A DNA stretch of 64,000 nucleotides from Haloterrigena sp. KLK7 (lineage in GTDB: Archaea > Halobacteriota > Halobacteria > Halobacteriales > Natrialbaceae): NCBI RefSeq assembly GCF_037914945.1, contig NZ_CP149787.1, positions 3,410,001-3,474,000 on the forward strand. The letters run 5' to 3'. Shown here in pieces: positions 56,274 through 59,342 of the stretch. Each line of letters begins with the position of its first letter. The first letter of the stretch is position 1. The notes under the pieces were generated by a model. The model was given only the letters and a program-made list of their open reading frames with translations. It was not told where the DNA came from and searched no databases. The translations under genes and the position numbers were made by a program.

Positions 56274-57515
56274 CTACGCGGTCTCGTCCTCGTCGTCCTC
56301 GAGGACGGCCAGCCGCGAATCCCGCAGGAGCACCTTCTTGACGATCGAGGGATTCTCGAGGAGTCGATGTTTGGCGTGGGCGCCGCGGCCGCGGCCGCGA
56401 CCCTCGCGCTCGGACTGGATCACGTTGAGGAAGTTCTGCTCCTGGAGGATCTCCTGTACGCGCCGTTCGGAGAGGACGTCGAAGTCGAGCTGGCGGGCGA
56501 CCTCCTTGTACTGGTTGTAGATGATCTTCGTCGGGAACTCCTTTTCCGTGCTGTTCTCGGTCAGCAGCGTCAGCGAGTAGAGGATCGCCTTCGCCTGCTG
56601 GGGCGAGCCCTCGATCAGTTCGTTGAAGCGGTCGGCCTCGGTCTTCTCCTTGGCATCGCGGACGTGGTCTGCCGTGACGCGGGTCGCGTTCTGTTTCTTC
56701 GCGATGCGACCGGCGTTTCGGAGGATGTCGATCGCCTTTCGCGCGTCGCCGTGTTCCTGGGCCGCCAGCGCCGCCGTGAGGGGAATCACGTCGTCGGAGA
56801 GCACCCCGTCGTGGAAGGCGTCGCGTCGCTTCTCGAGGATTTCGACCAACTGGTTGGCGTCGTACGGCGAGAAGACGAGTTCGTCGCGAGAGAGACTGGA
56901 TTTGACCCGCTCGGAGAGGTGATCGGGGAAATCGATCTTGTTCGAGATGCCGATGATACCGATACTCGAGTCCGAGATGCGTCGGTTCTCGCCCGCGCGA
57001 GAGAGTTTCCGGAGGACTTCGTCGTCCTCGAGCATATCGATCTCGTCTAGGATAACGATGGTGACGTCGGTGCAGTGATCGATCGCCTGCCAGAGTCGCT
57101 TGTAGTAGTCGCCGGTGCCGAGGCCGCGGTCGGGGACGGAGACGCCGCTCCGATCGGGTTCGTTGACGATCTGGGCGATCGTCTTCACGATCGACGCCTC
57201 GGTGTTCTGTTCGCCACAGTCGATGAAGGCGTACTTGACGGTGACGTCGTCGCGCTGCGCTTCCGAGATCACCCGCTGGGTGATCGATCGGGAGATGAGT
57301 GATTTGCCGGTTCCGGTCTTGCCGAAGATGAACAGGTGGTTGGGCTCGCTCCCGAAGATAGCCGGGTTCAGGGCGTCCGCAACCCGTTGCATCTGCTCGT
57401 CACGACCGACGATCCGATCCGGACCGGGCAGGTGCGTGATCTCGAGCAGGCGCTCGTCGGCGAAGACCGGATCGTCGTACCGAAAGAGCGGGTCTCGATC
57501 GTCGTTGGCGGACAT
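56274..57515 (-). CDS. orc1: Orc1/Cdc6 replication initiator
   Basis: A 413-residue AAA+ ATPase that binds origin repeats and loads the MCM helicase. Walker A is FGKTGTGKSLISRS (core at residues 65-72), Walker B is VTIVILDEIDMLEDDEV, sensor 1 is IGIIGISNKIDFPDHL, and sensor 2 is in HGDARKAIDILRNAGRIA. The C-terminal winged helix that binds DNA contains LSERRVQEILQEQNFLNVIQ. The neighbouring intergenic region carries origin repeats, so this is the initiator of that origin. Confidence 0.97.
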   Translation of the reverse strand: MSANDDRDPLFRYDDPVFADERLLEITHLPGPDRIVGRDEQMQRVADALNPAIFGSEPNHLFIFGKTGTGKSLISRSITQRVISEAQRDDVTVKYAFIDCGEQNTEASIVKTIAQIVNEPDRSGVSVPDRGLGTGDYYKRLWQAIDHCTDVTIVILDEIDMLEDDEVLRKLSRAGENRRISDSSIGIIGISNKIDFPDHLSERVKSSLSRDELVFSPYDANQLVEILEKRRDAFHDGVLSDDVIPLTAALAAQEHGDARKAIDILRNAGRIAKKQNATRVTADHVRDAKEKTEADRFNELIEGSPQQAKAILYSLTLLTENSTEKEFPTKIIYNQYKEVARQLDFDVLSERRVQEILQEQNFLNVIQSEREGRGRGRGAHAKHRLLENPSIVKKVLLRDSRLAVLEDDEDETA

Positions 57516-57855: not shown

Positions 57856-58042
57856 GAGGGGACACACACCCCCGTCGCGTTTGTAACGGGGAAGGTGGGG
57901 GAGGGGGTACAGAATTATCCCGGATTCCGACGAGATTCAGACGTCATCACCTCGAATTTACATCCGCGACACTGGTGTGTTCCACGAAGAGACCCCCACA
58001 CCTAGATGGCGTTACAAACGCGATGGGGGTGTGTGTCCCCTC
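57856..58042. other. Core replication origin with inverted boxes
   Basis: Box 2 (57856-57888) and box 3 (58010-58042) are 33-bp inverted repeats with a single mismatch, each made of GAGGGGACACACACCCCC, CGCG and TTTGTAACG. Between them are 121 bp including a G-rich run (57894-57907), the AT-richer AGAATTAT and GAATTTAC segments (likely unwinding region), a half-repeat at 57957 and CCCCCACACC at 57993. Such a pair around an AT-rich segment next to orc1 defines an origin in haloarchaea. Confidence 0.85.
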
Positions 58043-58253
58043 GACGGCTCGGACGGCGGCACTCACTCGAGCGCGGAACGATCCGAACCGAACCAGTTCG
58101 GTTAGAGATTTCACGACGCCGGGAAACACGATCCGACTCATTCAGCGGAGAAGGGGATCCAACTCGTCCAGACGATGCAGATTCGGGCAGATTCGTAGAC
58201 GGCGCAGATTCAAGAGATCCAGAGATCGCCTTCCACTGCGTATAGACTATAGA

Positions 58254-58297
58254 CTAGTTCTAGCTCTAGTTCTAGCTAGTCTAGAACTAGAGCTAGA
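58254..58297. repeat. CTAG array inside a long palindrome
   Basis: CTAG occurs at 58254, 58260, 58266, 58272, 58276, 58281, 58287 and 58293: eight copies in 43 bp, spaced 6, 6, 6, 4, 5, 6 and 6. Segments 58259-58275 and 58281-58297 are perfect 17-bp inverted arms with a 5-bp spacer. ATAGACT is repeated just before. It lies 212 bp beyond origin box 3. No coding frame uses it. Confidence 0.85.
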
Positions 58298-58404
58298 GAG
58301 TTGTTGTTACCCTCCCCACCTAAAACAGTGTGGACACCGTTTCAAACGGGAACCGCTGGACTCCCGAACGCGTCCCTTTTGCCACCGCAGCGGATAGTCG
58401 GGGT

Positions 58405-58578
58405 ATGACCGACACGTCCCTCGAGCCGTCGGCCGCTCAGTGGATCGACTCGAGCGACGGTATCACCTCGAGTGATGGTGTCGCTCCGAGTGACGGACTC
58501 CCAAGCCGATATATGCGAACGGACGGAACCGAAACGGATACACCGCTCCTCGAGCGGATATCCTCCATCGACCGATGA
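58405..58578 (+). CDS. Possible small acidic protein ORF before the RNA methyltransferase
   Basis: A 57-residue frame, MTDTSLEPSAAQWIDSSDGI onward, with a repeated SDG pattern (SSDGIT, SSDGVA, PSDGLP). Its stop overlaps the next ATG by ATGA, which suggests coupling. The acidic composition is haloarchaeal, but no family was recognised and the frame may be chance. Confidence 0.35.
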   Translation: MTDTSLEPSAAQWIDSSDGITSSDGVAPSDGLPSRYMRTDGTETDTPLLERISSIDR

Positions 58579-59342
58579 CTCCCGAGCCGTCCGCGACCGA
58601 GCAGTCGTCCGATCGCACGCCGCCGGCGGTCGCCGTCGTCGACGCCCAGTTCCCGGGCAACGTCGGCACCATCGCTCGAGCGATGAAGAACTTCGGATTC
58701 GAGGACCTCCTGCTGGTCGATCCGCCCGAACTCGATCCCGACGGCGAGGCCTACGGGTTCGCGGGCCACGCCCGCGAAGACGTCCTGCCGAACGCGACGG
58801 AGATCTCGTTCGACCGGCTCGTCGCGGAGTATCACACGATCGGCTGCACGGCGGTCACCAACGAGGACGACCGCAGCCACGTCCGCTTTCCGTTCTCGAC
58901 GCCCGCCGACCTCGCGGAGCGGCTCCCGACCGTCGAGGCGCCGACGGCGCTCGTCTTCGGCCGCGAACGCGTCGGGCTGACCAACGAGGAACTCGCCCGC
59001 ATCGACGAGATCTGTTCGATCCCGGCCAGCGCCGAGTACCCGGTGCTCAACCTCGGTCAGGCCGCGACGATCACGCTCTACGAACTGCGCTCGCTGACCC
59101 TCGCCGACGACGAGACCCAGCTTCCGGACGTCGAGCGGGTCCGGGCCCCCGAACCGACCGTCGATCGGCTCTACGACCAGTGGGCGGCGCTCCTCACCGA
59201 GATCAACCATCCCGAGGAGAAACGCGACAAGACGATGCGCATGCTTCGGCGCGTGTTCGGGCGCGCGGACCTGACCGAACGCGAGGCGAACACGCTGCTC
59301 GGCATCCTCCGTCGGGCGACCGAACGACCGGCCGAGAACTGA
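58575..59342 (+). CDS. trmJ: SPOUT RNA methyltransferase, TrmJ-like
   Basis: A 255-residue enzyme that methylates ribose (2'-O) in tRNA, in archaea at position 32 by TrmJ. Knot motifs: VAVVDAQFPGNVGTIARAMK, FGFEDLLLVDPPELDPDGEA, TALVFGRERVGLTNEELARI and YPVLNLGQAATITLYELRSL. An 80-residue helical C-terminus (EEKRDKTMRMLRRVFGRADL) follows, as in TrmJ. The gene borders the origin on the side away from orc1. Confidence 0.9.
   Translation: MTPEPSATEQSSDRTPPAVAVVDAQFPGNVGTIARAMKNFGFEDLLLVDPPELDPDGEAYGFAGHAREDVLPNATEISFDRLVAEYHTIGCTAVTNEDDRSHVRFPFSTPADLAERLPTVEAPTALVFGRERVGLTNEELARIDEICSIPASAEYPVLNLGQAATITLYELRSLTLADDETQLPDVERVRAPEPTVDRLYDQWAALLTEINHPEEKRDKTMRMLRRVFGRADLTEREANTLLGILRRATERPAEN

Follow-up and report, generated by a model that had tools for sequence, protein, structure and literature searches.

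What role does a dense array of a single tetranucleotide play beside a predicted replication origin in a haloarchaeon? The question is raised by eight CTAG sites crowded into 43 bp upstream of an orc1/cdc6 initiator gene of Haloterrigena sp. KLK7, within the window analysed here (the whole stretch of 64,000 nucleotides, positions 3,410,001 to 3,474,000 of contig NZ_CP149787.1). At oriC of E. coli, a GATC cluster acting with Dam and SeqA controls the origin, and the array resembles this cluster in being a dense group of a palindromic tetramer, the target of an orphan methyltransferase, at an origin. The two differ in that oriC uses m6A in GATC, a common tetramer, whereas the array would involve m4C in CTAG, which is rare genome-wide; moreover, the array lies outside the initiator boxes and no reader protein is known for it, in contrast to oriC with SeqA. 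To our knowledge, no SeqA-like reader has been described in archaea.

CTAG clusters located upstream of orc1/cdc6 genes were described across haloarchaea, where more than one of these genes in a genome frequently has one, and their presence was correlated with an orphan m4C methyltransferase, a Dam-like role in replication control being proposed (Blow et al., 2016, PLoS Genet, PMC4752239, Fig 6D; the motif is printed as CATG in the text and as CTAG in the figure legend). The sequence-only reading of the window, according to which no archaeal counterpart had been described, was therefore wrong, since exactly such clusters were reported in that paper. The array shares with them the motif, the non-coding place upstream of orc1/cdc6, the occurrence at several orc genes and the orphan methyltransferase, and several of their hallmarks were found here, namely a non-coding cluster upstream of orc1/cdc6, its conservation at orthologous sites and a gene of the methyltransferase family. 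Whereas Blow et al. (2016) assessed motif density in 500-bp windows, the present analysis adds the single-base anatomy, the position relative to the ORBs, the turnover of the sequence and a species-private palindrome. The array is a further case of the published haloarchaeal cluster type, newly resolved in detail; the function of CTAG methylation in haloarchaea has been called an open question (Fullmer et al., 2019, PMC6471742).

A predicted origin and its CTAG array

The features of the site are as follows (window coordinates):

56274..57515, minus strand: orc1/cdc6 initiator gene, 413 aa (Pfam Cdc6_lid and Cdc6_C; orthologues in relatives)
57857..57887, minus strand: ORB-L, ORB-like repeat with G-string, inverted copy (from sequence)
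57888..58010, no strand: spacer between the ORBs, including an AT-rich part, cagaattatcc...gaatttacatcc
58011..58041, plus strand: ORB-R, ORB-like repeat with G-string (from sequence)
58254..58296, no strand: array of eight CTAG sites in 43 bp, with distances of 6, 6, 6, 4, 5, 6 and 6 bp from one start to the next
58259..58275, plus strand: left arm of a perfect 17-bp inverted repeat, TCTAGCTCTAGTTCTAG, species-private
58276..58280: spacer between the 17-bp arms, 5 bp, CTAGT
58281..58297, minus strand: right arm of the perfect 17-bp inverted repeat, CTAGAACTAGAGCTAGA, exact reverse complement of the left arm
58575..59342, plus strand: SpoU/TrmJ-like RNA methyltransferase gene (trmJ; Pfam PF00588), the usual neighbour by synteny

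This layout is that of archaeal origins, in which inverted ORBs flank a putative unwinding region beside orc1/cdc6, and the origin is predicted from sequence. The claim that the array stands beside the replication origin thus holds as a prediction, based on the Orc1/Cdc6 gene and the two inverted ORB-like repeats. These repeats were detected in almost the whole family (ORB-L in 97 of 98 genomes, allowing at most 9 mismatches of 31, and ORB-R in 96 of 98). By analogy with known archaeal origins, the spacer between them is the likely unwinding region, and the array begins 212 bp beyond the end of the outer ORB (ORB-R). As judged from its gene neighbourhood, this orc1-adjacent predicted origin is distinct from the canonical oriC1 of the same genome, because the OapC-adjacent orc1 (C1:1533195-1535165, L336) is a different paralogue.

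The eight CTAG start at positions 58254, 58260, 58266, 58272, 58276, 58281, 58287 and 58293, in agreement with the original description of eight sites in 43 bp that are mostly 6 bp apart, and exact reverse complementarity confirms the perfect 17-bp arms and their 5-bp spacer. CTAG is strongly avoided in this Haloterrigena genome: the window holds 30 CTAG in total against 105 in dinucleotide shuffles, and 22 of them are spread over the ~64 kb outside the array. As this background is well under that of the shuffles, the array is not due to chance; the Poisson probability that any 43-bp stretch of the window would hold eight CTAG comes to ~2e-15 at the observed background rate and ~5e-10 at the higher shuffled rate, which bears out the earlier statement that such a density cannot be accidental. 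Across all five contigs of the genome (4.64 Mb), three CTAG at exact 6-bp spacing occur only at this array.

As a separate observation, purines predominate family-wide (0.64) on the plus strand of a 25-bp bin that directly adjoins the cluster centre on its right, and this place (58300-58330 in the window, and its equivalent in relatives) often carries runs such as agaaagagaag.

Conservation at the orthologous origin

The region upstream of the orthologous orc1 was compared in 98 Natrialbaceae genomes. At least three CTAG within 60 bp were found at the orthologous origin in 91 of these genomes and at least four in 82, the cluster being present in 19 of 22 genera with a median start 701 bp upstream of orc1 and 159 bp past ORB-R. 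In one of the seven cluster-negative genomes (G079), the contig ends short of the position that the cluster occupies in that genus. Within Haloterrigena, all six genomes show five to eight CTAG in 60 bp, 612-738 bp upstream of orc1, and Haloterrigena salina (G001) has the same origin with an Orc1 that is 99% identical. Beyond the family, more than half of the fetched genomes of genus g60 of family f5, the Orc1 of which is ~69% identical, carry a cluster ~570-740 bp upstream, and the other f5 genera and Halorussus mostly lack a cluster in the region upstream of orc1. Clustering at the orthologous origins of relatives, a check that the sequence-only reading had itself named, was thus found in both close and distant relatives. 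No cluster was present upstream of a different orc1 paralogue family (L313-L317); hence, orc1 genes do not in general carry such a cluster.

A promoter element of trmJ was also considered and ruled out, because the cluster keeps its position at the origin when trmJ is located elsewhere (G027 and G132, in which the cluster remains near the ORBs) or sits between the ORBs and the cluster (G022, G081 and G123). The cluster is real, and the comparison of relatives shows strong conservation and indicates that it is functional.

CTAG content is kept, spacing and palindrome are not

Within a fixed region 550-950 bp upstream of orc1, CTAG occurs 499 times, GTAC 164, ATAT 104 and TTAA 14 times. The density in the cluster zone is 36.8 CTAG per kb vs 4.8 for GTAC, but this zone was chosen by its CTAG and the fixed region provides the fairer comparison. 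GTAC, which has the same composition as CTAG, is not enriched in the origin region, and the other tetramers are far lower in the fixed region; hence, the enrichment is specific to CTAG rather than a property of AT-rich DNA in general.

These counts bear on two alternative explanations. According to the first, CTAG would merely be less avoided in non-coding DNA, through relaxed counter-selection or the decay of an inserted element, and the array would have no function. The genome-wide avoidance of CTAG and the non-coding, AT-rich nature of the region agree with this explanation, but it is contradicted by the above-composition enrichment in the fixed region. In addition, the cluster holds its place in 19 of 22 genera between neighbouring sequences that cannot be aligned, and no other NTAN tetramer comes near the density that CTAG reaches in the cluster zone; we regard this explanation as extremely improbable. 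According to the second, the array would be an easily melted or bent element, the TA steps and AT-rich context of which help to unwind the origin. TA steps are flexible and the AT content is 0.63 at the cluster vs ~0.43 nearby; however, CTAG is the only strongly enriched NTAN tetramer, with TTAA and ATAT rare and GTAC not enriched, and unwinding probably takes place between the ORBs, away from the array. A melting element is therefore improbable.

The arrangement of the sites is much less constant than their presence. Start-to-start spacings across the family range from 4 to >20 bp with a mode of 5-6, so the regular 6-bp spacing of the present array is not conserved in relatives. Helical periodicity was sought in the family clusters and no period was found, and this possibility was dropped in view of the broad spacings. 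The NCTAGN contexts are mixed, with no longer consensus around CTAG.

The palindrome fares similarly. Its 17-bp arm compares with a median of 8 bp over 82 clusters, and arms longer than those of shuffles that keep the CTAG positions (p<=0.05) were found in 6 of the 82, with ~4 expected; four of the six belong to the genus Haloterrigena. The idea that the palindrome forms a cruciform or hairpin as a functional element draws on the perfection of the 17-bp arms and on their length, which is above that of CTAG-position-keeping shuffles (p ~0.01). Nevertheless, the long palindrome is limited to this species and shorter arms follow from the self-complementarity of CTAG, so that the cruciform suggested by the sequence-only reading was not borne out and appears largely refuted by the comparison with relatives; we consider it highly improbable. 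Taken together, the unwinding, cruciform and relaxed-avoidance explanations are poorly supported.

When the genus is aligned, the ORB blocks are 58-70% invariant, the DNA on either side of the array 0-16% and the array block 32%. The core of the array, TCTAGATCTAGTTCTAGCTAG, is common to four genomes of the genus, differs by one base in the present genome and is alignable between flanks that do not align. The comparison thus indicates that the persistent trait is CTAG content at one place, around which the sequence, the spacing and the flanks turn over, the 17-bp palindrome being private to this species.

CTAG clusters elsewhere in the genome

Clusters were located genome-wide by pattern searches, a triple being three CTAG with gaps <=16 bp. 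Such triples occur at about six independent places in the 4.64-Mb genome, three of which lie on the upstream side of an orc1 gene. Clusters therefore accompany several orc1/cdc6 genes in this genome: that of the present origin; that of the oapC-type canonical oriC1, with eight CTAG (G000:C1:1535887-1536019; L336:7887-8019) and a second group of three (G000:C1:1536249-1536271; L336:8250-8272); and the orc1 at C1:345449-346645, with three CTAG ~400 bp upstream. Each oriC1 group adjoins a pair of long G-string repeats, an alternation seen in this genome. Additionally, the Orc1 encoded at oriC1 (L336:5195-7165) contains, within its AAA+ domain, an insert of ~140 residues (around positions 219-362 of the reading frame); an intein was considered and rejected, as the insert is acidic low-complexity sequence.

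Away from orc1 genes, an equally rich cluster of nine CTAG in 129 bp (G000:C1:279537-279665; L333:5538-5665) lies between a DUF1616 gene and a MarR-like helix-turn-helix gene, and replication control does not explain it. A weak cluster at C1:243479 is found in a low-GC region that looks acquired. A further one of these places is a 20-bp tandem repeat in four copies with one CTAG each (CTAGTGG...TCCTA; G000:C1:264569-264632; L335:4570-4633). The sequence-only reading had held that many equal clusters unrelated to origins would speak against it. This check came out mostly in its favour: few were found elsewhere, with three of about six at orc1 genes, but the C1:279537-279665 cluster is equally rich; CTAG clusters are enriched at origins and not exclusive to them.

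The main rival explanation is a CTAG-specific binding protein, either nucleoid-associated or an accessory origin factor, that ignores methylation. This explanation is consistent with the constant position at the origin and the specificity for CTAG, and with the C1:279537-279665 cluster, which lies between two non-origin genes in the manner of an operator. It also has a precedent in Sulfolobus, where the nucleoid-associated protein UBP binds the essential ucm motif at origins (PMC12141716). The array resembles the UBP-ucm system in being an accessory, conserved, non-ORB element at an archaeal origin, but ucm follows a defined consensus and is the binding site of a nucleoid-associated protein, whereas the array is a variable set of tetramers. 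Further arguments against a binding protein are that neighbouring sites lie 4 to >20 bp apart with no fixed period, that no longer consensus surrounds CTAG and that sites 5-6 bp apart cannot all hold ordinary dimers. On balance, such a protein seems rather unlikely as the explanation.

The CTAG methyltransferase

The genome encodes a homologue of M.MthZI (G000:C1:3191427-3192485, minus strand), with 48% identity over 347 aa. M.MthZI is known from plasmid pFZ1 as a CTAG methyltransferase (specificity from literature cited in Fullmer et al., 2019, PMC6471742), and the presence of a homologue agrees with the sequence-only reading, which had named such enzymes as common in haloarchaea. Among 391 genomes of the class, 332 encode relatives of this enzyme; among the matches listed, it is present in all Natrialbaceae, and the genomes listed as lacking it all belong to family f5. 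Methylation of CTAG as m4C is documented for Haloterrigena salifodinae BOL5-1 (4,856 sites, 74.5% detected; PMC8103870) and for Natrinema pallidum (PMC12160562). Orphan status, i.e., the lack of a cognate CTAG restriction enzyme, was reported for the family (Ouellette et al., 2018, PMC5867850; Fullmer et al., 2019, PMC6471742).

Enzyme and cluster do not always coincide. Four Natrialbaceae (G019, G021, G026 and G091) and two f5 genomes (G394 and G414) carry the enzyme and lack a cluster at this origin. When f5 genomes (g33 and others) were compared, clusters proved to be missing upstream of the nearest orc1 to almost the same extent whether or not the enzyme is present, a comparison restricted to orc1 paralogues only ~50% identical, with no comparable origin. 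As a side observation, a cluster (CTAGCTAGCTAGTAGCTAG; G151:C3, L144:770-788) lies ~420 bp upstream of orc1 in G151, in which the CTAG methyltransferase was not detected, and the enzyme-positive G301 has a similar cluster at a related orc1 (L145).

Haloferax volcanii is able to live without origins. In this species, deletion of the CTAG methyltransferase causes no growth defect, and CTAG density is raised only near oriC2 (Ouellette et al., 2018, PMC5867850). The present case is similar in that CTAG is enriched near an origin in a haloarchaeon, with HVO_0794 as the enzyme in Haloferax volcanii; however, oriC2 shows a regional rise of both CTAG and GATC, whereas the array is compact and consists of CTAG only.

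A candidate methylation mark at the origin

Because CTAG is the target of a conserved methyltransferase, the cluster probably serves as a methylation mark with a part in origin control, and we infer that the number of methylatable CTAG sites close to the ORBs is under selection. The proposed mechanism, in analogy to the GATC clusters with Dam and SeqA in E. coli, would run as follows. The eight sites would be fully methylated before replication, and passage of the fork would render all of them hemimethylated at once. The dense hemimethylated mark, or its slow re-methylation, would then be read by a putative protein, which would either hold back or permit the following round of Orc1-dependent firing or label the new origin copies. 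Sites 4-6 bp apart would be too close for one ordinary binding protein each, and such crowding may therefore suit a chemical mark or an oligomeric reader.

The methylation mark finds support in the place kept across the family, the specificity for CTAG, the alignment of the core within the genus, the cluster at oriC1, its persistence at the origin when trmJ moves, the enzyme gene, the m4C reported in the genus and the correlation with the enzyme published by Blow et al. (2016). Arguing against it are the lack of a known archaeal reader, the normal growth of the deletion strain (albeit in a species that can do without origins), the enzyme-positive genomes that lack the cluster, the enzyme-negative G151 with a cluster at orc1 and the rich C1:279537-279665 cluster off orc1. 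Weighing both sides, we see an even chance that the array is a cluster of methylation sites, i.e., a motif-density mark, the hemimethylated state of which after fork passage signals a newly fired origin. It is possible, albeit doubtful, that the array is the cis part of an archaeal m4C origin control in which the hemimethylated state is read and re-firing is prevented; jointly with this, and just as tentatively, the Dam/SeqA logic would have been invented independently in Archaea, working with Orc1/ORB origins.

Implications

The comparison separates what is kept, namely the CTAG content and its place, from what is accidental in this species, namely the palindrome and the 6-bp spacing: across the family, the array is kept as a CTAG-rich cluster while its letters change. 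With eight sites in a compact array 212 bp from an ORB, this origin offers a clean target for asking whether archaea time their replication by DNA methylation.
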